NCBI GenBank assembly: GCA_017634975.1
Contig: JAGBMJ010000003.1
Coordinates: 1 to 47,742 of the forward strand
DNA length: 47,742 nt
DNA from: Lachnospiraceae bacterium
Lineage (GTDB): Bacteria > Bacillota > Clostridia > Lachnospirales > Lachnospiraceae
Direction: 5' to 3'
Position numbers and translations under genes: made by a program. The number at the start of each line of letters is the position of its first letter. Positions within the stretch are counted from its first letter, which is position 1. The notes under the pieces were generated by a model. The model did not search any database. It had not been told where the DNA came from and saw only the letters and a program-made list of their open reading frames with translations. This document shows, one piece after another, positions 26,601-46,975 of this stretch.

Positions 26601-26881
26601 AAAAAAAGTCTCCTCTCATTTAATTACTACAAGCGGCGACTGTACACTCTCCCGTGTGTGTCATGCTTTTCCTTTTAAAAAACCCTGTGTTCAAAAGACA
26701 TCAGGGCTGCACAAACAAACACGTCGTTTCTGTGATCTCTTAATTTATTAAGTACACAGACTGTTTTTCGTACAGTGACTTGTTGTCAGATGAATTGACA
26801 TTCGCTCCACGGAAAACCCGCACGCTCTGTATTTTGAGCATTGCGGCAACCTCACGCTTCACAGCTATCAATGTCACAGCA
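26601..26881 (-). promoter_or_regulatory. Long folded leader of the S10 operon
   Basis: About 280 untranslated bases from the promoter to rpsJ. A strong hairpin at 26818-26846 (CCGCA and GCTC stems with their partners) is followed on the transcript by GGGTTTTCC; an ACTGT/ACAGT hairpin follows, and a terminator-like hairpin with six T lies at 26677-26706. I see no open reading frame with a ribosome binding site that would suggest a leader peptide. Confidence 0.6.
26677..26706 (-). terminator. Terminator-like hairpin inside the S10 leader (possible attenuator)
   Basis: CCCTG and TGT arms pair with ACA and CAGGG across a bulged A, with six T immediately after on the minus strand. It lies between promoter and rpsJ, so readthrough would have to be controlled. 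Confidence 0.55.
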
Positions 26882-28700: not shown

Positions 28701-29765
28701 TCACTCTTCTCCCAGTTTATCTCCGTCTACACGGATACGGTACGCGATCAGCTTCGCCAGAAAATACAGAAGCGCACACTCCCTTTCCTGCCAGATCCGG
28801 TGACTGTTCGGTTCCGCGCAGACCAGGTATCCGTCCGTTTCCGCATCCATGCCGACCCGTACCACAAGAAGCGTCTCGATCCCACGCCGTTTCAAAGCAC
28901 TGTAAAATACCGGGCTTTTCTGTTCAATATCCGCCAATATGCTCGTACTGAACATATCATCATTTGTCACACTTGATATATCTTCCACCGGCACCTGCAG
29001 CGTAAAATCCCTGACAGCACGGAATATATTGTCCTTACCCACATAAAACAGATCCGAAACGTTCAACTCCTCCATTAATAACGGCAATACGGAATGCAGC
29101 TTGTTCTTCAGCCCCGGCACCATCTCAAACTGACGCACCAATGCCTGCATACTGTTGTTGATCCCGCTCTTGCGCAGCTTGCTGATCTCGATATCCTTGT
29201 GTTTTTCTTCGACATAGATAATATAACAGTTGCGCCCCTTGGTCTTGCCACGATACAGCACCTTATCCATAATAGAAAACAGGCCGTCATAATCTTTGGC
29301 ATCCGTCGGATAGGAAGCGCATCCCAGTGTCCCCGTAATAAACGGACTGCAGGTTTCCAGCGGAATGTTCTTCCGCAGTACCAGCCCCTCTTCATATAAG
29401 GCCAGCAGGAATTTTTTCTTATCATCATACTCCATGTCCCGCAGATTGATGATCAACAGTTCATCGCCGCCGAAACGCCCGACGATACCGAATCCGTCCA
29501 TAAAATCGATCAGCCCGGCAGCAACCGCCATCAGTACACCGTCCCCTGCCTTATGCCCGTAGGTATCATTGATAAACTTGAAATTATCCAGATCCAGCAT
29601 CGCATAGGTAAACGGGGTATCGTTTTCGATCAGATACTTGGCAAATCCCAGAATATACGGGCGCGACACGATCCCCGTCAAAGGATCCAGAAGAAACTCC
29701 TTTGCGGTTGTCTTCAATTCATTTTCGAAATATGGAAATCGTTTCAGTTGTTCTTCCGAATACAT
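28701..29765 (-). CDS. Diguanylate cyclase (GGDEF domain) with C-terminal GAF-like region
   Basis: 354 residues, cytoplasmic. The GGDEF domain spans about 25-190: DPLTGIVSRPYILG, MLDLDNFKFINDTYGHKAGDGVL, and the active-site variant GGDEL (residues 99-103). The usual RxxD inhibitory site nine residues ahead is absent, so product inhibition there is unlikely. The C-terminal half (about 200-350) resembles a GAF-type sensor. I start at the ATG at 29765, which has GGGGG close upstream; the longer frame to 29846 crosses the promoter. It makes cyclic di-GMP from two GTP. Confidence 0.87.
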   Translation of the reverse strand: MYSEEQLKRFPYFENELKTTAKEFLLDPLTGIVSRPYILGFAKYLIENDTPFTYAMLDLDNFKFINDTYGHKAGDGVLMAVAAGLIDFMDGFGIVGRFGGDELLIINLRDMEYDDKKKFLLALYEEGLVLRKNIPLETCSPFITGTLGCASYPTDAKDYDGLFSIMDKVLYRGKTKGRNCYIIYVEEKHKDIEISKLRKSGINNSMQALVRQFEMVPGLKNKLHSVLPLLMEELNVSDLFYVGKDNIFRAVRDFTLQVPVEDISSVTNDDMFSTSILADIEQKSPVFYSALKRRGIETLLVVRVGMDAETDGYLVCAEPNSHRIWQERECALLYFLAKLIAYRIRVDGDKLGEE

Positions 29766-29801
29766 AGTAGCCCCCAAAATGCCACTGCCTTCTCTAAATA
29801 C

Positions 29802-29829
29802 TTTATAAAAGTATATCACTTCTTTCCAA
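29802..29829 (-). promoter_or_regulatory. Candidate promoter of the diguanylate cyclase gene
   Basis: Minus strand: TTGGAA, 16 bases, TATAAA, followed by a leader of about 30 bases. Just upstream is the terminator of the preceding unit. Confidence 0.5.
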
Positions 29830-29848
29830 ATATCACAATACAACACAG

Positions 29849-30313: not shown

Positions 30314-31084
30314 TTATCTCCTGCGTTCTTTCTTCTCTTTTTTATCCTTTTTCACATTCTTCCGGTCCCATTTGTGGATGCACTGCAGCAGCAGTCCGAT
30401 CAACGCCAGTACACCGAGCGCGATATTGTAGGTCTGATCCGGCAGTTCATAGATCCGGTCCGCCATACTCACTACCAGCATCGCTCCGCTGACAGACGTA
30501 AACAGGATAATGATATAATCCCCCAAAAGCAGCGCCAGTACACCGATCACCACACCTGCGAGGAACGCGGTCAATAGCCCCTTCTCCAAAAACTGCATCG
30601 CATCCTTCAGCTCATTCATCACCGGAGCCGTCTGCTCACCGATCACCGCTTTAGCAGCTGCCGCCAGATCCCCCTTTTCCTTCACCTGCTCTACCCACAG
30701 GCGAAGGAGTGTATCCGTATCCGGGATGGCTGCCACACTCTTCCGCACCATCGCATATGCCTGTTTCAAAAACCACAGTGCGACTGCCCCGAACGTGCAC
30801 AGAGAGCCGGCAATATATAAAGCTGCCTTGTACTTCCAGACGCCAATGATGCCAAAGAGCAGTGCCGGGATCCCGGCCAGATAATACAGATCCGTATGCC
30901 CCGTCACATCCAGCACCGCGATACCGAGCAGTCCGCCGAGTACGGCGCAGATCACAAACTGCACGCCCTTAAAAACATAAAGACCCGCAAATAAAAGCAG
31001 AAGCCCGGCGATCAGATACACTACGATCGTCGGCGATTCTGCCACGACTTCCCGGATATGCTGCAGATACGTTTCGATCTCCAT
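30314..31084 (-). CDS. Polytopic membrane protein of unknown function
   Basis: 256 residues with about eight hydrophobic segments (residues 20-38, 42-58, 67-84, 86-108, 168-188, 190-205, 220-235 roughly) and a strongly basic tail KKDKKEKKERRR. Gly-rich helices resemble the TMEM198/DUF4203 type, but this is only a likeness. It starts on the TAATG overlap with the gene ahead and is followed by a thioesterase, so it is likely cotranslated. Function unknown. Confidence 0.75.
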   Translation of the reverse strand: MEIETYLQHIREVVAESPTIVVYLIAGLLLLFAGLYVFKGVQFVICAVLGGLLGIAVLDVTGHTDLYYLAGIPALLFGIIGVWKYKAALYIAGSLCTFGAVALWFLKQAYAMVRKSVAAIPDTDTLLRLWVEQVKEKGDLAAAAKAVIGEQTAPVMNELKDAMQFLEKGLLTAFLAGVVIGVLALLLGDYIIILFTSVSGAMLVVSMADRIYELPDQTYNIALGVLALIGLLLQCIHKWDRKNVKKDKKEKKERRR

Positions 31085-32718
31085 TATAAATACTCCAGCA
31101 GCGCTTCCAGTCCCTGCTCCTCATACACCTCACGGTAAAATCCCACTTCCTCCGAGATCAGTCCGTCGATCACACGCATCCCCAGGAGCTCCACCGGTGC
31201 CTGATCGTCCGTCATGATATGTTCCCCGCCTTCATAGGCGACAAACAGCTCCCCCACGTTTCCCATCATCCGTCGCAGATCCGGAGCTTCTTCCTTCTCG
31301 ACTCCTTCCGCAAACCGCTCTGCGATCCTCGGATCTGCGGCCGCAAACAGTTCCCGGTTCGTCGATCCCTGTACGTCCGCGGTATAGACCACCGGAAATA
31401 CCGAAGCGATGGTATCCGACAGGTATTCCGTAATATTTCCGGCCTCACTGCTGCGCATATTCATATTGACCACCATCACACCGTCGTCCTTCAGATGCGC
31501 CTTCACCTGTGCAAAAAACTCCACCGAGGACATCTGGAACGGGATCGTGATGTCCTGATAGGCATCCACCATGATCAGATCATACTTCCCGTCATCCGCA
31601 TTCAGATAGGCCCTGCCGTCATAGGTGATCACCGGCACCTCTTCCGGCAGTTCAAAGTATTCTCTCGCCAGCGCCGTGATCTTCTCATCGATCTCCACGC
31701 CGGTGATGTCCATATTGCCAAAATACCGGCGGCACTGTGTCGCATAGGTTCCGGTGCCCATCCCCAGGATCAGCACATCCAGATGATCCTTCTCCTTCAC
31801 GCCGGCCATATACGCTGCTGCCATCGCATAGTCATAGTACATCCCCGTCAGTTCTTTTTCCTTGCGGTACACCGACTGCACCCCGAAAAGTACATTCGTG
31901 GAAAGTGCCACCTGCCGGTCATTCTCATATACCTGCAGATAGTTGTACACAGACTCTCCCTCATAGGTCAGATCCTTCTGCCAGAAAGCAAAACTGCTGT
32001 CATGCCCGAAGATGCAGGCCAGCAGAAACAGCCCCGCGCCCACCGGCAGCTTTTTTACAAATACTTTGGATGTGGCAAAATATACGATTGCCAGTGCAAG
32101 CAGGATCCCCGCAAAGATCAGAAAAGTGATCGCTGTTCCCACTGCCGGGATCGAAATAAACGTCGGAACAAAGGTACCGATGATCGAACCCACGGTATTA
32201 AATGCATTCAGGTTGCCGACCGTCCGGCCCTCTTCGGCAGATTTTTCCCCCTCCTGCTGTTCCGATACCAGCAGGCAGTACTTTACCAGCGACGGCGTCA
32301 CCGTTCCCAGCAAAAACAGTGGGAATACAAATACGACCATACAGGCAGCAAAAGCCGCGATGATCAAAAAGTTATTGCTCACCGTAAAGATCAGGGTTGC
32401 AGCAATCCCCATGATGATATATTTTCCCGCCACCGGGATCAGTGCGATCCAGATAGCGGCTATGATGATCCTCCCGTACAGCCTGTCCGGATCCGGATCC
32501 TTATCCGCACTCCGGCCGCCATAGACGTTCCCCAACGCCATCGCGATCATGATCGTCCCGATGATGATGGTCCACACGATCTGTGACGAGGAGAAATACG
32601 GTGCCAGAAGCCGGCTCGCTCCCAGCTCCACCGCCATCACACTCATTCCCGCAAAAAACTCCGTCAGATACAGATACAGACGGTTCTTTAATATCGCTCT
32701 TTCTTTCACTTTTTCCAT
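31084..32718 (-). CDS. Membrane protein fused to a spermidine synthase-like methyltransferase fold
   Basis: 544 residues. Residues about 15-240 form seven or more membrane helices of the type fused to SpeE-like domains. Residues about 310-440 hold the Rossmann fold: VLILGMGTGTYATQCRRYF, acidic VEIDEKITALAREYFE, and VDAYQDITIPFQMSSVEFF in place of the DSTDP catalytic stretch. True spermidine synthesis is uncertain. The ATG at 32718 is one base from GGTGAGG; a GTG at 32709 has better spacing. First gene of a three-gene unit. Confidence 0.82.
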   Translation of the reverse strand: MEKVKERAILKNRLYLYLTEFFAGMSVMAVELGASRLLAPYFSSSQIVWTIIIGTIMIAMALGNVYGGRSADKDPDPDRLYGRIIIAAIWIALIPVAGKYIIMGIAATLIFTVSNNFLIIAAFAACMVVFVFPLFLLGTVTPSLVKYCLLVSEQQEGEKSAEEGRTVGNLNAFNTVGSIIGTFVPTFISIPAVGTAITFLIFAGILLALAIVYFATSKVFVKKLPVGAGLFLLACIFGHDSSFAFWQKDLTYEGESVYNYLQVYENDRQVALSTNVLFGVQSVYRKEKELTGMYYDYAMAAAYMAGVKEKDHLDVLILGMGTGTYATQCRRYFGNMDITGVEIDEKITALAREYFELPEEVPVITYDGRAYLNADDGKYDLIMVDAYQDITIPFQMSSVEFFAQVKAHLKDDGVMVVNMNMRSSEAGNITEYLSDTIASVFPVVYTADVQGSTNRELFAAADPRIAERFAEGVEKEEAPDLRRMMGNVGELFVAYEGGEHIMTDDQAPVELLGMRVIDGLISEEVGFYREVYEEQGLEALLEYL

Positions 32719-37213: not shown

Positions 37214-39886
37214 TCACCTCATTTTTATCAACAATCCGAAGGTACCGCTGCCGCAGTTCACGGCGATGACCGGCGAGGCCTGGTAAAAATAAATGTGCTC
37301 AAAATGCATATATTTCTCCACCTCCGCGCGGATCCACTCCCGCTCCCTGCTGTTCAGGCCTACGTAAGTCACAAAAAGTCTTTCCGGATCGATCGCATAG
37401 CTTTGCCGTAAAACCGTTTTGATATACTTTTTCCAGGCCCCTTCCCTCGTACCGAAGTAAATCTTCCCCACACCCATCTTTCCGTTTTTCAATACCAGCA
37501 CCGGTCTGGCCATGATCGCCCGGGTAACGTTCGCCACCTTCCTGCTCACCTGTCCGGCCCGGGCCAGAAAATCCAGATTATCCACGATAAAACTGGTACG
37601 TATCCGTTCCTTGCATTGCTCTACGGCTTCCACGATCTCCTCCGGACGCATTCCCATCGCCGCGTACCGGCACGCCTCGAGTACCACCAGACCCTGTCCG
37701 CTGGAGAGATGCCCGGTATCGATCACCGATACATTGTCAAAAGCTTTTGCCGCCTCCTTTGCTGCCGGGCATCCGCTGTTCGCCAGCTGTGAGGAAATAG
37801 AGATATGGATCACGTTATTTGCAAGCGTCAACTGTTTTGCAAAAAAGCTTTCGATCTCCGGCACTTCCGCCCCCGATACCGTGACATTGCATTCCTCATC
37901 TTCCATATAATGCAACAGCCCCGTGGTCTCGATCTCGATGCCGTCCTTAAAATTTCCTTCTTCCGTGCAGACCAGATGCGGCAGTACTGCGATCCCGTAT
38001 TCCTTCAGCAGTTCTTCCGGCAGGTCCGCCACACTCTCCGTTGTGATCGCCACAGCCTTACGCTGCTGCCTTGCGTTCATCCAGGAGATGGTCTCCTTCA
38101 GAAGTTCCTCCTCTTCCCCGGTCACGACGGCCAGTCCTTTCGGCAGCAGACAGTACAGTTCCTTTTCAATGGCATCCCCGCTGATCGGTTTGACCAGATG
38201 CCCGTCGAACCCCTCCTTTTCATACAACTGCCTGTTTTCCTCACCGGCATTGGCCGTGAGTATGACTACCTTCGAGTCTTTGCAAAGTCCGCCGGTCTGG
38301 GAACGGATCGCGTGAAAGCATTCGATCCCGTCCATTTCCGGCATCAGGTGATCCATAAAGATCACGTGATAATGCCTGTTCAGTGTCTTCTTCAACGCTT
38401 CTGCCCCGGACGCGGCCGTGTCGATCTGCACTTTGGTCTCGCGAAGGAGTTTTTCCGTTACCAGCAGGTTTGAAGCATTGTCATCCACGACAAGTACCAT
38501 GGCTTCCGGTGCCTCATAAAGCGCCGTATGTTTCTTTCGGCGTCCGTCGGCTTTCCGCTGCTCCATATGCAGCTCCCCTATCGGATCATCCACAGCCGCC
38601 TTCTGCGGGATCTCGATGATGAATGTGCTTCCCTTGGTATATACGCTGTTGACCGTGATCTTTCCGCCCATCAGGTCTACCAGTTCCTTCACGATGGAGA
38701 GTCCCAGGCCGGTGCCCTCGATGTAGCGTGTCTTATCTTCCTCCACGCGCCGGAAGGCCGTAAACAGATATGGGATGCTCTCCTTCTTGATGCCGATCCC
38801 GGTATCCGTCACGGTATAGATGATATTGGTCAGTCCGTTCATGGTCTCCCCACGCTCCAGCGATAAGGTAACCGATCCTTCCCGGGTATATTTGATCGCA
38901 TTATTAAGAACATTCACGAGGATCTGTTTGATGCGCATCTCATCGCCGACCAGCTCCGCAGGGATTTCCGGCGACACATTCACATGAAATTCCAGCTGTT
39001 TTTCCCTGGCCCGCAGCCACAGCATCCCGACCAGTTCGGAAAGCATATTGCCTGGATGATACGGCGCCGGAGTCAGCTGCATCCGGCCGGAAGACAGCCT
39101 GGACATATCCAGGATATCATTGATCAGGTGCAGCAGCATCTTGCCGGCCGACTGGATATTCGCTGCATCCTCCGCCACTTCATCGCTGATATCTTCGCGC
39201 AGGATCATCTCATTGAGTCCGATAATAGTATTGATCGGTGTGCGGATCTCGTGACTCATACTGGAGAAAAAGCGGTTCTGTGCCTCTCCGAGCTGCTCGA
39301 TCTCCTGCTTCTGCTCCTGGCTGCGCAATACCTCCCGTGCATAGATCCGGCTCTGAAACGTCACCAGGATTCCGACCGCGGCACCCATCATCAAAAGTGC
39401 CACCAGCGAATACAGATGTGCCGAAAATCTGGTATTTTCCACGATCGTCTGCGGATACAGATAGGATATGCTCCAGCAGACGATCGACGTGACCGCATTT
39501 AAGAGAAGCATGACCAGCTTGACCCGGCCCGACAGACTCACACAGATGAACAGGATACTGAACAAAAACCACAGCGGTGCATCTCCGTAAACACCTCCTC
39601 CGCCAAAAAAAGTTACCGGAAGGAACGCAAACGTAATACCGATCGAGATCAGGAGCGCTCCGATGCGGTAATGCCGCATCCTTACGGACAATACGGTCAC
39701 GCCGGCCGTCAGCAGGATCGCGCCGGCCAAAAGCAGGATATCCGAAGCAGAACATCCGGCTATGCTGATCTCCACCAGCGTAAGAAGCCATACGACCAGC
39801 ATAATGATCATCGAGAGAACGAACAGCCTCTCATGCAGATCCCTTTTTCCATCCGTTATAAACGCCTTGATCTTTCTAGGATTCAT
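37214..39886 (-). CDS. Hybrid histidine kinase fused to a C-terminal DegV domain
   Basis: 890 residues. Five or six membrane helices occupy about 18-180. HisKA follows with His212 in SSMSHEIRTPINTIIGL. The ATPase domain shows VLNNAIKYT, DTGIGI (361-366) and GTGLGLSIV (391-399). A receiver (about 462-582) has Asp512 in IFMDHLMPEMDG. Residues about 610-890 are a DegV/EDD fold: VAITTESVADLPEELLKEYGIAVLP, VSVIDTGHLSSGQGL, SFIVDNLDFLARAGQVSR, ARPVLVLKNGKMG. DegV proteins bind fatty acids. The first serine motif is degraded (TES) and the SGT loop altered (ANSGCP). Its start overlaps the gene ahead by 11 bases. Confidence 0.9.
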   Translation of the reverse strand: MNPRKIKAFITDGKRDLHERLFVLSMIIMLVVWLLTLVEISIAGCSASDILLLAGAILLTAGVTVLSVRMRHYRIGALLISIGITFAFLPVTFFGGGGVYGDAPLWFLFSILFICVSLSGRVKLVMLLLNAVTSIVCWSISYLYPQTIVENTRFSAHLYSLVALLMMGAAVGILVTFQSRIYAREVLRSQEQKQEIEQLGEAQNRFFSSMSHEIRTPINTIIGLNEMILREDISDEVAEDAANIQSAGKMLLHLINDILDMSRLSSGRMQLTPAPYHPGNMLSELVGMLWLRAREKQLEFHVNVSPEIPAELVGDEMRIKQILVNVLNNAIKYTREGSVTLSLERGETMNGLTNIIYTVTDTGIGIKKESIPYLFTAFRRVEEDKTRYIEGTGLGLSIVKELVDLMGGKITVNSVYTKGSTFIIEIPQKAAVDDPIGELHMEQRKADGRRKKHTALYEAPEAMVLVVDDNASNLLVTEKLLRETKVQIDTAASGAEALKKTLNRHYHVIFMDHLMPEMDGIECFHAIRSQTGGLCKDSKVVILTANAGEENRQLYEKEGFDGHLVKPISGDAIEKELYCLLPKGLAVVTGEEEELLKETISWMNARQQRKAVAITTESVADLPEELLKEYGIAVLPHLVCTEEGNFKDGIEIETTGLLHYMEDEECNVTVSGAEVPEIESFFAKQLTLANNVIHISISSQLANSGCPAAKEAAKAFDNVSVIDTGHLSSGQGLVVLEACRYAAMGMRPEEIVEAVEQCKERIRTSFIVDNLDFLARAGQVSRKVANVTRAIMARPVLVLKNGKMGVGKIYFGTREGAWKKYIKTVLRQSYAIDPERLFVTYVGLNSREREWIRAEVEKYMHFEHIYFYQASPVIAVNCGSGTFGLLIKMR

Positions 39887-42488
39887 TATGATTCTCCTTT
39901 ACGGGAGCAAATTCCAAAATTTCGATATCTGCAGCTTCTTCGTTCTCCCCGGCGGGCGCAAACTCCAGGATCTCTTCTTTCTCCGGCGCCTGCTCCTTCG
40001 AGATTCCGCACGCTTCCGCAATACCGTCCACGACTGCACGATACTCTCCCAGCACTGCCTCCTGGTGTCCGGCAATAAAATCATAGTCCCCTGCCTTCGC
40101 AGCATCCTCCAGTTCCTTAGCGTGATCCGAAAGCACGCTGTTACCGATCGTTCTGGACGTACTCTTTAACGCATGTACGACGATCTGATAATTTTTCAGA
40201 TCTTTTTCCGCAAAAAAACGCTGCATTTTTTCCAGCTTGTCCGATGCTTCTTTTACATACTGCTCCAGCAGGACATGGTAAAAATCCTCATCTCCGGCAC
40301 TGTAGCGGATCCCACAGCTGACATCGACGCCGCAGGCAGCCAGCTTTTTGGAAAAAGGATCTGCTTCGCCTCCAACCGTCTTAGTGCTCTCCACTTCGGC
40401 TGTTTCCACCAAAGATCCCTGCACGGTCTCCGGCTTCCTCTCATACGTGATCGCCGACTTGGGCAGCACACGTTTCAGGACACGCTCCAGTTCCACCAGT
40501 TCGATCGGCTTGCTCACAAAACCGTCAAACCCGACCGACAGAAACATCTCTTTTGCCGAGCTTACGGCATTGGCCGTGAGCGCTACGATCGGTACCGCAC
40601 CGTGCTCACGCCCTCCCTCCGCACGGATCCGCCGCATCGCCTCCACGCCGTCCATTCCCGGCATCATATGATCCATAAAGACGATGTCGTACTGCTTTTC
40701 CCTGCACATATCGATGGATTCCTGTCCGGATATTGCCGTAGATACCTCCATTCCGTAGCGGCGGAAAATATTCAGCGCCACCGTCAGGTTCATCGGCTCA
40801 TCATCCACGACCAGCGCACGCACGCCACGGCAATACATACTGCCTTCCTCTGTCTCCGTTCCCGGTACCATATTCAGAAGTGCCGCCACCGGGAAGCAAT
40901 AGAACGGTTTTTCCAGGATCCGTGCTTTCGAACCTTCCGGCAGCGAAAAACCGTGGTCTGCCACTACCACGACCATGAGTTTCGACGTGAGTTGTTCCAG
41001 ATGTTCTCTTGCCGCCTGATATTCTTCTTCCCCGACAAACAGATGGGTCAGCTGCACGGAATGTGTCAGCTTGATCAGATTGGAAACATTATCCACACGG
41101 TGCATCTTCAGGTGCAGACCGCCCACAATATTACGCACCATGGTATCATAGAATTCACGCACGATCGGATGGGGGAATTTCTCAAAATTCAGATACGCCC
41201 CCAGCACCAGGCGATCGCTGTCTGCTACGGACATACATTTCTCGGCATTCACTACTTTCTGCGGTATGCTGACCCGCACCGTAGTCCCTTCTCCCGGCTT
41301 GCTCTTGAGCGTCATAAACCCGCCCAGAGAAGCCACAAAACCGGAAACGACCGCCATCCCCAGTCCCAGGCCGCCGCTCTTGCGGCTGCGTCCGGAATCC
41401 GCCTGATAAAAGCGTTCCGCGATACGCTCGCATTCTTCCTCCGTCATACCGATGCCGGTATCCGTCACCTCAATAAACAGATTGATCCCGTACTCCTGCT
41501 TCTCCGCGCAGATCCGTACGTACACACCGCCCTCCCGGGTATATTTCAGACCATTCATGATCAGGTGTCTCAGGATTTTGCGCAGCTTGCTCACATCCGT
41601 GTGCAATACCGAAGGGATGGCCGGATCCACGTCGATCACCAGCTCGATCTGCTCCTGCTTATACGGACGCAGTTCGTTTACCAGATCGTTGAGCAGGGAC
41701 GCGAGCATATAATCCTCAAAATTTGTCACCAGGCGTTTCCGGTCGATCTCGGAATAGTCCAGGATATCCCCGATCTGCTCCGCGACACGCAGGCCTGCAT
41801 TTCGTACCGACACCAGATTGGCCTTCTTTTCCGGATCGCGCTCTTCCTCGATCCCGATCCCGCTGAGGCCGATGATCGCATTGATGGGCGTACGGATCTC
41901 GTGAGATACGTTCGCCAGGAAATCATTCAGCCGGTCCGTTGCATCCGTGAGTATCTCGATCTCCCGGGTGGATGCATTCAACACCTGCAGCCATTTGGAT
42001 ATGATCATCCGCGCTACCCAGGCCACGACGGTGACCACGACCACATGCAGGATCGAGCGGGAGATGATCAGCGCATCAAAGGTCACGCCCTCCATCCACA
42101 TCAGTCCGATTCCATAGGCAAACGTGAGATAATACAGAAACTGCAGAAACGTGATCAGGGATTTCATCCCCGTCATCGTATACAGAAGCATCGCCAGCGA
42201 CATCACGGCAACCGTATCATACACGCTGGTGGTATGACTTCCGTAAAAGAAGAAACTGAACATGATCATCACGGTATAGATCCAGATCCGCTGACGATCC
42301 GAAAAGGTCTGTTCCACGTGCAGTTTCCATGAGATCAGCACGCCCAGAAAGATCGGAAGTATCGGCCACTTTTCCCATCCCATCAGAAAAGTCTCGATCG
42401 CCAGTATGACGGCAAAGATCGTATGACTGAGCAGAATGGTTAATTGGGAAGCCTGAAACAGTTCGTTTTTTTCAATCCCCGGTCTCAT
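39876..42488 (-). CDS. Membrane hybrid histidine kinase with receiver and HPt domains
   Basis: 870 residues. Membrane helices fill about 18-165. HisKA His196 is in ANVSHEIRTPINAIIGL. The ATPase domain carries DTGIGM (343-348) and GGLGLGMAVV. Residues about 418-540 look like a degenerate receiver without a phosphoacceptor Asp. A true receiver follows (about 556-676) with Asp606 in VFMDHMMPGMDG and Lys660. The HPt domain (about 725-825) has His772 in VHALKSTSRTIG. The tail repeats ILEFAP twice (841-846, 857-862). It starts one base after the gene ahead ends and overlaps the DegV-kinase gene. Confidence 0.9.
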   Translation of the reverse strand: MRPGIEKNELFQASQLTILLSHTIFAVILAIETFLMGWEKWPILPIFLGVLISWKLHVEQTFSDRQRIWIYTVMIMFSFFFYGSHTTSVYDTVAVMSLAMLLYTMTGMKSLITFLQFLYYLTFAYGIGLMWMEGVTFDALIISRSILHVVVVTVVAWVARMIISKWLQVLNASTREIEILTDATDRLNDFLANVSHEIRTPINAIIGLSGIGIEEERDPEKKANLVSVRNAGLRVAEQIGDILDYSEIDRKRLVTNFEDYMLASLLNDLVNELRPYKQEQIELVIDVDPAIPSVLHTDVSKLRKILRHLIMNGLKYTREGGVYVRICAEKQEYGINLFIEVTDTGIGMTEEECERIAERFYQADSGRSRKSGGLGLGMAVVSGFVASLGGFMTLKSKPGEGTTVRVSIPQKVVNAEKCMSVADSDRLVLGAYLNFEKFPHPIVREFYDTMVRNIVGGLHLKMHRVDNVSNLIKLTHSVQLTHLFVGEEEYQAAREHLEQLTSKLMVVVVADHGFSLPEGSKARILEKPFYCFPVAALLNMVPGTETEEGSMYCRGVRALVVDDEPMNLTVALNIFRRYGMEVSTAISGQESIDMCREKQYDIVFMDHMMPGMDGVEAMRRIRAEGGREHGAVPIVALTANAVSSAKEMFLSVGFDGFVSKPIELVELERVLKRVLPKSAITYERKPETVQGSLVETAEVESTKTVGGEADPFSKKLAACGVDVSCGIRYSAGDEDFYHVLLEQYVKEASDKLEKMQRFFAEKDLKNYQIVVHALKSTSRTIGNSVLSDHAKELEDAAKAGDYDFIAGHQEAVLGEYRAVVDGIAEACGISKEQAPEKEEILEFAPAGENEEAADIEILEFAPVKENHNES

Positions 42489-42489
42489 A

Positions 42490-44232
42490 TCAGTTCTGAT
42501 TCCTCCGACGCGTGATCAGTTCCATCAGATGCTGTACCCGCAGACTCAAAAGATCCGGATGAAACGGTTTCGGCATAAAATCCCATGCTCCGAGTTCCAA
42601 CCCTTTCTGCTCTGCCTCGATACTGATATCCGCGGTCAAAAATACCACCGGGATATTGGCATATCGTTTGTCCATGCTCTTCAGCCTGCGTACAGCTTCA
42701 AAACCATCCATCTCCGGCATCATCACATCCATCAGGATCATATCCGGCACTCTCTGTTCCAGGAACTTAAACAGCGCTGCTGCCGAACGCATCGCCGACA
42801 CGTGGAATCCTGCCTTGCTCAGCGCATTTCCGGCCAGCTGCAGATTGGCCACCTCATCATCCACCACCGCAATGTGCAATTCCGGTCTGGCGGCATCGCT
42901 GCCACCTTCCAGTGCCGTTTCAAACTCGATACGCAGACCGCCGCCGTTCTGTTCGTCCCATCTCCGGATCAGGTGATCCACTACCGTGGCGACCGCATTC
43001 TCCCGGATATCCGTAAGGAACAGAAAATACTGGTTCGGTCGGCAGCGCATAAACACGTCCGTCTTTCGGAAAAACTCACTCAGATGTTCTCCGAAACTGT
43101 CACACGCTTCCTGATATGACGCATCACTCATTCCCTCTCCCGGTCCCAGGGTAAAGAGCACCTTCCCCGCATATTTCCTGTTTCGCATGATATAGCGGAT
43201 CACATACCGGTACACAAAAGAAAAGGAGTCCTTGTCGAGCTGCAGCGCATCATTACCGATCGACCGCTCCCCGAGGATCTCCGAGATCTTCTCCATATTC
43301 AGGATATTGCTGTCCGCCACCTCTTCCGTAAACGCCGCTTCACTGTAGACAGCGCCGCCATGCTTTCCGTTCTTTTTTACGGAATACAAAGCCTTGTCTG
43401 CCAGTTTCAACAGCTTATCATAACTCTTCTCCGGTCTGGGAAGCAGGATCCCGCCAATGGAAGCCCCAAGCGGAATATCCATATCCTCGCCCATCAGCTG
43501 CTTTGCCATTTCCGTGATCTCTTCGTTGAGTTTTTCCGCCAGATCCGCCACTTCCGCCGCATCCGTATAGCCGTCCGCAAAGGCAACAAACTCGTCTCCT
43601 CCGATCCGTCCGCATTTGCTTCCCTGCGGAACACAGCTGCTCAGGATCTTCGCAAAGCCCTGCAGCACCTTGTCCCCCATCTCGTGGCTGTATATATCAT
43701 TGACCAGCTTAAACGAATCCAGATCGATCATCATCAGACACCCGGTCTTTTCCTCACACATCCGGCCCAGTTCTTCCGCCGTAGCTGCTTTATTCAAAAA
43801 ACCGGTCAGCTTGTCTATGGTCGCCTCGTTTTTGAGATTCAGGAGTCTCTGCTGTTTGGAGATGATGTTCCCGATGCGCCGCAAAAAAACATCCGGAACG
43901 AACGGCTTCTTGATATAATCCGAAACGCCGGCCTCAAAGCCCTGTTTTTCCGTGTCCGCATCTTCATCCGCCGTCAGAAAAATGACCGGCGTCTCCTCCA
44001 TGGAACGCGCCTGTTCCGCCACACGGAAACGTCTCAGCGTCTCAAACCCATCCATCTCCGGCATCTTGATGTCCAAAAGCACCAGCTCAGGCCGGCTTCC
44101 CTCTTCAATCTTCTGCAACAGCTCCATTCCGGAGCGGAGTGCCGTCACCTCAAAATCATTTTTCCTGAGAATATGCTCTGCGACACGCAGATTCGTAGTA
44201 TCGTCATCCACGACGATGATCTGATCCGCCAT
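42490..44232 (-). CDS. Two-receiver diguanylate cyclase, REC-GGDEF-X-REC
   Basis: 580 residues, soluble. First receiver 3-125 with Asp54 (VLLDIKMPEMDG) and Lys109. GGDEF domain about 135-300 with intact GGDEF at 211-215 and no RxxD inhibitory site. Residues about 310-445 are an unassigned module, possibly a degenerate second GGDEF. Second receiver 452-575 with Asp502 (MDVMMPEMDG) and Lys555. The start is the ATG at 44232, preceded by AAGGGGG; the longer open frame is untranslated leader. It is the first gene of the operon and the probable output, making cyclic di-GMP when phosphorylated by the two kinases downstream (inference). Confidence 0.9.
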   Translation of the reverse strand: MADQIIVVDDDTTNLRVAEHILRKNDFEVTALRSGMELLQKIEEGSRPELVLLDIKMPEMDGFETLRRFRVAEQARSMEETPVIFLTADEDADTEKQGFEAGVSDYIKKPFVPDVFLRRIGNIISKQQRLLNLKNEATIDKLTGFLNKAATAEELGRMCEEKTGCLMMIDLDSFKLVNDIYSHEMGDKVLQGFAKILSSCVPQGSKCGRIGGDEFVAFADGYTDAAEVADLAEKLNEEITEMAKQLMGEDMDIPLGASIGGILLPRPEKSYDKLLKLADKALYSVKKNGKHGGAVYSEAAFTEEVADSNILNMEKISEILGERSIGNDALQLDKDSFSFVYRYVIRYIMRNRKYAGKVLFTLGPGEGMSDASYQEACDSFGEHLSEFFRKTDVFMRCRPNQYFLFLTDIRENAVATVVDHLIRRWDEQNGGGLRIEFETALEGGSDAARPELHIAVVDDEVANLQLAGNALSKAGFHVSAMRSAAALFKFLEQRVPDMILMDVMMPEMDGFEAVRRLKSMDKRYANIPVVFLTADISIEAEQKGLELGAWDFMPKPFHPDLLSLRVQHLMELITRRRNQN

Positions 44233-44278
44233 AGAACCCCCTTGTGAGAATAAATACGTGCTACCTTTCCCTCTCCTT

Positions 44279-44307
44279 ACTTTATCACGAAACCCCTGCC
44301 GCCGCAA
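44279..44307 (-). promoter_or_regulatory. Candidate promoter of the phosphorelay operon
   Basis: Minus strand: TTGCGG, 17 bases, TAAAGT. Both hexamers deviate, consistent with an activated or weak promoter. It lies downstream of the clpB terminator, so the operon needs its own start. Confidence 0.4.
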
Positions 44308-44342: not shown

Positions 44343-44379
44343 AAAAAAGGTGTCAGGGAGAACTGTCTCCATTGACACC
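44343..44379 (-). terminator. Intrinsic terminator of clpB
   Basis: Seven-base outer stem GGTGTCA with TGACACC and an inner GGAGA/TCTCC stem, followed by six T on the minus strand, 14 bases past the clpB stop. Confidence 0.9.
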
Positions 44380-44392
44380 CTTTGTATATCCT

Positions 44393-46975
44393 TTATGCCT
44401 TCACTGCTGCCAGCACATCGCCCTGTTTTTCGATCCGTATCGTATCGCCCTGCGAGATCTGTCCGGACAGGATCAGCTTCGCCGAGAGCGTCTCCACGGT
44501 TTTCTGAATATAGCGCTTTAACGGTCGTGCGCCGTAGATCGGATCGTATCCGTTCTCTACCACGAAAGCTTCCGCTTCCGGTGTCAGTTCCACAGACACT
44601 TCCTTATCCTCCAGCCGCGCGTTCAGCGACTTCATGATCAGGCTCACGATACCGCTGATATTTGCTTTGGTCAGCGGCTTAAAGAGAATGATCTCATCCA
44701 GACGGTTCAAAAACTCCGGCCGGAAATGATCCCGCAGCTGATCCATCGCATCCTCTTCCGCCTCCGGCGTGATATTGCCATCGGCATCAATGCCATCTAA
44801 CAGCGTCTGCGCACCAATGTTGGAAGTCATGATCAGGATCGTATTCTTAAAGTCCACGGTACGCCCCTGCGAATCCGTGATCCGCCCGTCATCCAGCACC
44901 TGCAGCAGGATGTTGAACACATCCGGATGCGCTTTTTCCACTTCATCAAAAAGTACTACCGAATACGGTTTGCGCCGTACTGCCTCGGTCAGCTGACCGC
45001 CCTCATCATAGCCTACATATCCCGGAGGCGCTCCGATCAGACGCGATACGGAATGCTTCTCCATGTACTCGCTCATATCGATACGCACCATATTGCTTTC
45101 ATCATCAAAGAGCGTATCCGCCAGCGATTTGGCGAGCTCCGTCTTACCTACACCGGTAGGCCCCAGGAACAGGAACGAGCCGATCGGCTTGCCCGGATCC
45201 TTGATCCCGGCCTTGGAACGGATGATGGCCTCGCTTACCTTGGTCACCGCTTCGTCCTGTCCGATCACACGCTTGTGCAGTTCCTCGTCCAGATGCAGCG
45301 TCTTGTTGCGCTCACTCTCATTCAGCTTGCTTACCGGGATGCCGGTCCAGCGGGAGATGATCCGCGCGATCTCTTCCTCCGATACATTTTCATGCACCAG
45401 ACGGTTCTCCTTCTTTCCTGCCGTCTCTTCCTCGATCTCCAGCTGTTTCTTCAGATCCGGCAGTCTGCCGTAGGACAGCTCTCCGGCTCTTTCATAATTG
45501 CCCTCCCGCTGCGCGATCTGGATCTCGTTATTGACCGCCTCGATCTCCTCACGGATCTTGGACACTTTATCGACCGCCGATTTTTCATTCTCCCACTGTG
45601 CCTTGGCCGATTCGAATTTTTCCTTCTCCTCCGCCAGTTCCTTCGACAGATCCTCCAGCCGGTCGCGGCTTAAGTTATCATCTTCCTTCTTAAGTGCGGC
45701 CACCTCGATCTCCATCTGCATGATACGCCTCTGTGCTTCATCCAATTCGGTCGGCATAGTATCCAGCTCGGTCTTGATCAGCGCACAGGCCTCATCCACC
45801 AGGTCGATTGCCTTATCCGGCAGGAAACGGTCACTGATATAACGGTTGGAAAGCACCGCCGCACTCACCAATGCGTTATCCAGGATCTTTACGCCGTGGT
45901 ACACTTCATAACGTTCTTTCAGGCCACGCAGGATGGAGATCGTATCCTCCACCGTCGGCTCATCCACCATTACCGGCTGGAAACGACGCTCCAGCGCCGG
46001 ATCCTTTTCAATATATTTGCGGTACTCGTCCAGGGTGGTTGCACCGATGCAGTGCAGCTCGCCTCTTGCCAGCATAGGTTTTAACATATTGCCGGCATCC
46101 ATCGCACCGTCGGTTTTGCCTGCGCCCACGATGGTGTGCAGCTCATCGATAAACAGAATGATCTGCCCTTCGGATTTTTTCACTTCCTCCAATACCGCTT
46201 TCAGACGCTCTTCAAACTCACCACGGTATTTAGCCCCGGCGACCAGAGCCCCCATATCCAGCGAAAACAGTTTCTTGTCTTTCAGACCTCCCGGTACGTC
46301 GCCGCGCACGATACGCTGCGCCAGCCCTTCTACAACGGCCGTCTTACCGACACCCGGTTCACCGATCAGCACCGGATTGTTCTTGGTCTTTCGGGACAGG
46401 ATACGGATCACGTTACGGATCTCGGCATCACGTCCGATCACCGGATCCAGCTTCTGCTGCCGCGCGCGCTCCACCAGGTCAAAACCGTATTTTGTCAGGG
46501 TATCATAGGTCGCTTCCGGATTGTCTGTGGTCACCCGCTGGTTGCCGCGCACCGTTGCCAGCGCCGCCAGGAAGCGCTCTCTGGTAAAACCGTACTCGGT
46601 AAACAACGCTTTGATCTCACGATTCGGGAAGCGGATCATGGAAAGCATCAGATGTTCCACGGAAACATAATCGTCCCCCATCGCCTTTGCTTCGTCTTCC
46701 GCACTGATCAGCACTTTATTCAGATCCGGCCCGATCCGCAGATCACCGCCCTGTACCTTCACACGCTTTTCCAGCGCCTGCTTTGTACGCTCCACGAAAT
46801 GCTCGGTGTTGATCTCCATCTTCTCCACGAGCTTCAGGATCAGGGAATCCTGCAGCTGCAGCAGGGCATACAGTAGATGCTCCTGCTCGATCTCCTGATT
46901 GCCGTACTCCACGGCCAGTTTCTCACAATCCTGCACCGCCTGTACGGAATTCTGCGTAAATTTCTGAATATTCAT
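44393..46975 (-). CDS. clpB: ATP-dependent disaggregase ClpB
   Basis: 860 residues. Clp N-domain 1-145; first AAA module with [18 protein letters not shown] and [16 protein letters not shown]; the long coiled-coil middle domain about 400-525 that distinguishes ClpB from other Clp ATPases; second AAA module with [18 protein letters not shown] and [21 protein letters not shown]. There is no ClpP-binding IGF loop visible, as expected. It rescues heat-aggregated proteins with DnaK. Transcribed from a promoter under a perfect CIRCE, so HrcA repression is expected. Confidence 0.97.

Follow-up and report, generated by a model that had tools for sequence, protein, structure and literature searches.

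Organisation of the locus

We describe a set of three adjoining genes on the reverse strand of a 47,742-nucleotide stretch of DNA from a gut-type Lachnospiraceae bacterium (contig JAGBMJ010000003.1 of assembly GCA_017634975.1), referred to throughout as the window. The genes encode an output protein with a GGDEF cyclase domain and two receiver (REC) domains, and two membrane hybrid histidine kinases (HK), of which one ends in a histidine phosphotransfer (HPt) domain and the other in a DegV domain. The features are as follows.

42490..44232 (-): gene 1, the output protein, REC-GGDEF-X-REC (Pfam: REC, GGDEF, REC)
43885-44223 (-): gene 1, REC1, receiver residues intact
43351-43833 (-): gene 1, GGDEF, E 9.3e-34, RIGGDEF motif, residues intact
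42880-43326 (-): gene 1, X, assigned as a degenerate GGDEF domain
42547-42876 (-): gene 1, REC2, receiver residues intact
39876..42488 (-): gene 2, membrane HK-(dead REC)-REC-HPt (Pfam: HisKA, HATPase, REC, Hpt)
41973-42488 (-): gene 2, membrane module
41742-41930 (-): gene 2, HisKA
41259-41597 (-): gene 2, HATPase
40848-41234 (-): gene 2, dead receiver, without the phosphoacceptor aspartate
40479-40814 (-): gene 2, REC
39999-40304 (-): gene 2, HPt
37214..39886 (-): gene 3, membrane HK-REC-DegV (Pfam: HisKA, HATPase, REC, DegV)
39329-39886 (-): gene 3, membrane module
39086-39283 (-): gene 3, HisKA
38600-38947 (-): gene 3, HATPase
38159-38497 (-): gene 3, REC
37217-38071 (-): gene 3, DegV domain
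44343..44379 (-): terminator-like stem and T run, seen by eye, between the gene at 44393-46975 and gene 1

Genes 1 and 2 lie one base apart, genes 2 and 3 overlap by 11 bases, and the kinase histidine, the receiver aspartate and the HPt histidine are all intact within the one gene set. A preliminary description of this DNA, made from its letters, had proposed this anatomy and the HPt relay layout that goes with it, and the domain architectures, the spacing and the phosphoacceptor and cyclase motifs all bear it out; its further remark, that the set lacks a DNA-binding domain, agrees with the Pfam matches of the three genes, among which there is none.

To judge from the Pfam matches of its relatives, X is a degenerate GGDEF domain, and the domain of gene 2 without a phosphoacceptor aspartate is, to judge from its model, a receiver; profile comparisons of X with GGDEF (P 0.11) and of the dead receiver with REC (P 0.29) were uninformative. 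The N-terminal modules of both kinases are hydrophobic and match no Pfam family; their weak mutual profile match (P 1.2e-4) may be explained by hydrophobic composition. The frame of gene 1 is open from a TTG at 44307, but both its ribosome site and comparison with relatives point to the ATG at 44232 as the likely start. The gene at 44393-46975 is clpB-like, as judged by eye, and the stem and T run beside it is absent from the output of the terminator scan.

Conservation of the gene set

Relatives were gathered in two sets, their genes being called on stop-to-stop segments. The first (L034-L113) comes from a genome scan with gene 3 that gave at least 578 loci, hybrid kinases of every kind being accepted as relatives, and holds the 80 of these that are most similar to gene 3; the second (L194-L231) holds 38 hand-picked loci with dead-receiver profile matches in other genera, some sharing one genome, and is the less biased of the two. 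For the count of neighbouring genes nine of the 80 and two of the 38 loci were not evaluable; among nine 'HD-GYP' loci in this count, L064, L083, L084 and L092 are cut by a contig edge and L055 is a short piece.

The three genes are kept together in many relatives, and the refutation that the preliminary description foresaw, a lack of joint conservation, did not come about. Gene 2 lies directly before gene 3 in 76 of the 77 loci of the first set that have upstream sequence, and a cyclic di-GMP enzyme adjoins the kinases in 61 of the 71 judgeable loci of the first set and in 18/36 of the second, which also upholds the cyclic di-GMP output proposed at the outset. The control consisted of 20 hand-picked, comparable hybrid kinases without DegV, some with short flanks, and replaced a same-locus control of n=2; three of the 20 adjoin a cyclic di-GMP enzyme and one further control kinase itself carries HD-GYP. 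Against this control the Fisher p is 5.5e-9 for the first set and 0.011 for the second, or 5.7e-8 and 0.045 when the HD-GYP-bearing kinase is counted. At L218, L219 and L225 a GGDEF gene is present one gene further out. Frames of 257 codons stand beside the cassettes of L219 (12381-13151) and L225 (3389-4159), each with a C-terminal receiver and 140 N-terminal residues without assignment; the N-terminal part is perhaps a dead receiver placed before the live one.

Among 299 genomes from the family to which the window belongs, 54 have the dead-receiver profile; among 398 drawn from the phylum it is present in 4, three of them members of the family (the window's own genome included), so that the set mainly belongs to this family. 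Record titles of the best 80 of the at least 578 loci name Lachnospiraceae most frequently, and also Oscillospiraceae, Ruminococcaceae, Eubacterium and others, with many relatives coming from the rumen; the organism names of metagenome-assembled genomes are the submitters' labels. Outside the family, L229 (5916-9338, forward strand) has GAF and a weak HAMP ahead of HK-(dead REC)-REC-HPt, with REC-HD-GYP adjoining, and would appear to couple this relay core to another sensor.

The output protein and its variants

An HD-GYP domain follows REC2 in 33 of the 53 cassette rows of gene 1, a count that includes the window and leaves out the second cyclase of L069 (not adjacent) and the proteins of L028 and L041; Pfam confirms it as PF13487 in three of the 33 (L043, L047 and L060). 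It is missing from the window copy of gene 1. REC-HD-GYP alone occupies the gene 1 position in L050, L072 and L081, stands just behind gene 3 in L071, and lies beside the kinases in ten loci of the second set. Of the two-receiver cyclase that had been described, the receivers and the intact GGDEF domain stand; the protein looks more like a reduced form of a cyclase joined to a phosphodiesterase.

The GGDEF motif is intact in every one of the 52 cassette GGDEF domains and none of the 52 has an RxxD site, the window domain reading PQGS there instead. The RxxD product-inhibition site is common in response-regulator diguanylate cyclases and is not obligatory. As for the HD-GYP domains, 26 cassette rows retain the HHExxDGxGYP motif, and it is changed at the D in seven (L063, L078, L051, L074, L049, L079 and L056, with the forms HHERxGGGGYP and HHERFAGDGYP), so that some of the phosphodiesterases may be weak.

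On the receiver tree REC1 forms one group (98), and REC2, with or without HD-GYP, is intermixed with the receivers of REC-HD-GYP genes. Since REC2 groups with HD-GYP in this way, the window form is most simply taken to have lost its HD-GYP, which would make it synthesis-only. There are 17 forms of REC2 without HD-GYP, the window's among them, and 16 of these keep all five receiver residues; the receiver appears to stay after the loss of the enzyme behind it. The sister row of the window in the gene 3 tree is L043 (support 87), although by path length L068 is nearer than L043 in that tree and L043 is nearer in another gene 3 tree; gene 1 of L043 reads X-REC-HD-GYP, with no GGDEF, the reverse of the window form. 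The proteins of L028 and L041 consist, by eye, of REC, degenerate GGDEF and EAL, and that of L028 (4256-5635, forward strand), with its EAL-type stretch, lies 200 bases behind the DegV gene and may add a third type of output to the cyclic di-GMP enzymes.

Number and placement of the HPt domain

Among 118 loci, 19 were not evaluable for HPt placement, leaving 99 cassettes in which the two kinase genes are complete. The HPt is in gene 2 in 93 of these, in the DegV gene in five and in a separate next gene in one (L220); exactly one HPt is found across both kinases in 98 of the 99, none has an HPt in both kinases, and gene 3 is without its own HPt in 94. The forms with HPt in the DegV gene make up one clade of 14 rows (99%), in a tree where gene 3 frames of more than 1080 codons were given this label by length, so the domain probably moved once. 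A placement of 93, five and one, and never in both kinases, fits one HPt serving both, and on the strength of the gene sequences we would regard it as the best anatomical sign that the two kinases use the same HPt.

The DegV domain of gene 3

The DegV domain keeps the whole fold of the fatty-acid-binding DegV/FakB proteins. In FakB, His266 is said, from the 2016 work of Broussard, to bind the carboxylate and Arg202 to dock FakA, and on our alignment we placed the residues that we take to define FakB, namely Thr61, Ser93, Arg170, Arg202 and His266. All five differ in the window, at columns that are clear for Arg170, Arg202 and His266 and ambiguous for Thr61 and Ser93; Asn877 occupies the position of His266 and Phe811 that of Arg202. 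Across 136 fused DegV rows (133 distinct sequences) His266 is kept in one and Arg202 is lost in 135; the two ordinary DegV proteins of the window's own genome keep both. At L227 (5679-6635, reverse strand) the cassette DegV is a separate 319-codon frame between the HK-(dead REC)-REC-HPt and REC-GGDEF-X genes, and this free-standing form shares the Asn and Phe changes. With the presumed carboxylate-binding and FakA-docking residues lost, the earlier suggestion that DegV presents a fatty acid is not supported; since the fold is kept, the domain is a possible lipid sensor.

A proposed phosphorelay and its alternatives

We propose, with a probability that we put at roughly 0.6, that the three genes form one phosphorelay setting the level of cyclic di-GMP, in which DegV is a remodelled FakB-like pocket that tunes gene 3. 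Along the predicted phosphate path each membrane hybrid kinase would load its own receiver, the receivers of both kinases would exchange phosphate with the single HPt (that of gene 2 in the window), and the HPt would then pass it to the two receivers of gene 1, REC1 and REC2. Phosphorylated REC1 would switch on the GGDEF cyclase, as in DgcR (PMC8041772, in excerpt). In relatives with REC2-HD-GYP one relay would act on synthesis through one receiver and on degradation through another, and in the window copy REC2 would remain as a further acceptor of phosphate. The dead receiver of gene 2 probably transmits or restrains allosterically. The DegV pocket, which would no longer serve a fatty-acid kinase, most likely tunes the kinase/phosphatase state of gene 3 on binding a lipid-like ligand inside the cell. 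More tentatively, and as a possibility that we would place short of even odds, a freed FakB pocket could be the lipid sensor that sets a two-kinase, one-HPt relay in which the making of cyclic di-GMP and its destruction have a receiver each, the predicted direction of the response being changed by enzyme loss (synthesis-only in the window, degradation-only in L043).

Several observations weigh against this proposal. In the second set 14/36 loci have a receiver gene only and 4/36 have nothing recognised beside the kinases, so that the output is not always cyclic di-GMP. Eight relatives carry an upstream fourth gene, HK-REC-HPt (the one checked has a dCache sensor, and its HPt, at 21.3 bits, is below the cut-off), other HPt genes lie near the cassette in L196, L197, L212, L218, L221 and L231, and gene 2 of L201 has two HPt matches. 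One gene 2 has Ser for the HPt histidine, and that of L027 (1-1470, forward strand) has Gln for the kinase histidine, so one kinase of a pair may be dead. The receiver tree was built on few columns, and the branches with support in it do not compel REC2 to intermix with REC-HD-GYP receivers. Covariation between the HPt and the four receivers gave top scores above a label-permutation null, a null that ignores relatedness. Furthermore, a domain C-terminal to a receiver is usually an output and not a sensor.

This last point is the natural ground for supposing that DegV is itself an output, phosphorylation of the gene 3 receiver altering its lipid loading or partner contacts beside the cyclic di-GMP branch, and the separate DegV frame of L227 is in keeping with it. 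However, an output acting through fatty-acid kinase fits poorly with the loss of the presumed FakA-docking Arg in 135/136 rows and the survival of His266 in one, and there is one clade whose HPt follows DegV in the same protein, which puts DegV inside the relay chain there; we think such an output unlikely. It is likewise doubtful that DegV binds a non-lipid ligand, or none, and is a mere dimerisation or docking module, a reading that draws on the replacement of all five presumed FakB-defining residues in the window, three of them at clear columns. Finally, two separate systems might stand side by side, gene 2 alone driving gene 1 while gene 3 signals elsewhere or modulates through mixed dimers: gene 2 by itself holds a full HK-REC-HPt chain, covariation gave no usable HPt-receiver pairing, and where further HPts lie close to a cassette, gene 3 could use those. 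Yet the kinase genes are adjacent in 76/77 loci, the gene 3 protein lacks an HPt in 94/99 cassettes, and in one clade it carries the only HPt of the two kinases, gene 2 having none; a sole HPt that lies in gene 3 in one clade and in gene 2 in the rest is easiest understood if both kinases use it. We consider separate systems improbable, the least probable of these alternatives, and prefer a single relay shared by both kinases.

Relation to known systems

In the Pseudomonas aeruginosa HptB pathway (HptB, HsbR, HsbD), a single HPt is common to several hybrid kinases, and a diguanylate cyclase is met by the pathway (PMC5085249, in excerpt), so that HPt relays meeting cyclic di-GMP enzymes are known already. 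The kinases of that pathway are orphans encoded elsewhere, and HptB, a separate protein, acts through HsbR/HsbA, whereas in the cassette the two kinases, the HPt and the enzyme form one gene set, the enzyme bears receivers and one kinase bears DegV. Receiver phosphorylation activates the cyclase dimer in REC-GGDEF cyclases such as PleD, WspR and DgcR (PMC8041772, in the portion available); the cassette protein resembles them in its REC ahead of an intact GGDEF and differs in the added degenerate GGDEF, the second receiver behind it and the lack of RxxD in 52/52 GGDEF domains. The likeness to FakB/DegV fatty-acid-binding proteins covers the whole fold, with the differences that the cassette DegV is fused to a hybrid kinase and that the His266 and Arg202 positions are lost. 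The REC2-HD-GYP half of full-length relatives and the REC-HD-GYP genes beside the kinases are presumably RpfG-type phosphodiesterases; unlike these, the cassette HD-GYP is often fused behind REC-GGDEF-X, and in the window copy it is missing. Gene 2 shares its kinase, receiver and HPt parts with BarA/ArcB-type hybrid kinases, from which it differs by the extra dead receiver between kinase and receiver; its best NCBIfam match is BarA, and the 25 NCBIfam matches listed, out of 155, are all below the curated cut-off.

Searches of the open-access literature yielded no description of a DegV domain within a kinase or an HPt/cyclic di-GMP network, in agreement with the preliminary remark that its author knew of no described system of this composition; papers found there with DegV and kinase terms (PMC8931315, PMC9912610) are, by title and start of abstract, not about such a system. 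A broader search in which DegV was optional carries little weight, none of the 15 papers listed out of 1,405 having DegV. A 2022 review of cyclic di-GMP stimuli (PMC8846402, as excerpted) describes lipid sensing by these networks as predicted, with a sensor domain yet to be identified, and DegV is absent from its main text. It also names receptors that respond to quorum signals of the fatty-acid type, so there is no novelty in a fatty-acid input as such. What the set adds is a new candidate sensor domain, DegV, and an unusual two-receiver, two-enzyme output. If the cassette DegV binds lipid, the set supplies a testable lipid sensor in Lachnospiraceae and relatives, and its moving HPt and swapped output enzymes provide a natural experiment in relay rebuilding.

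Cyclic di-GMP in the genome and other features of the window

The window's own genome has five cyclic di-GMP-I riboswitches and three PilZ matches, and so the means to read cyclic di-GMP exist. It also has 17 HD_5 matches, some apparently doubled by assembly, and these proteins could supply the degradation of cyclic di-GMP. Contigs C11 and C102 of G000, for which contamination is given as 7.46%, hold the same HD-GYP run at a constant offset, a probable assembly redundancy. Elsewhere in the own genome, a periplasmic-binding-protein-GGDEF gene neighbours a dCache-GGDEF-X gene (L192, contig C21), showing that X follows GGDEF outside the cassette too, and two REC-GGDEF-X genes in tandem, together with a REC on its own and a kinase of 1295 codons that has an HPt (L193, contig C36), form another possible relay to cyclic di-GMP.

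Within the window a second GGDEF gene lies at 28701-29846 (-), with 381 amino acids from the listed start, of which about 170 C-terminal residues match no Pfam family. An S10-Clostridia ribosomal protein leader (Rfam RF03136, 69.2 bits) at 26783-26870 (-) is followed by ribosomal protein genes, and a 544-amino-acid protein encoded at 31084-32718 (-) has a spermidine-synthase domain in its C-terminal half only.
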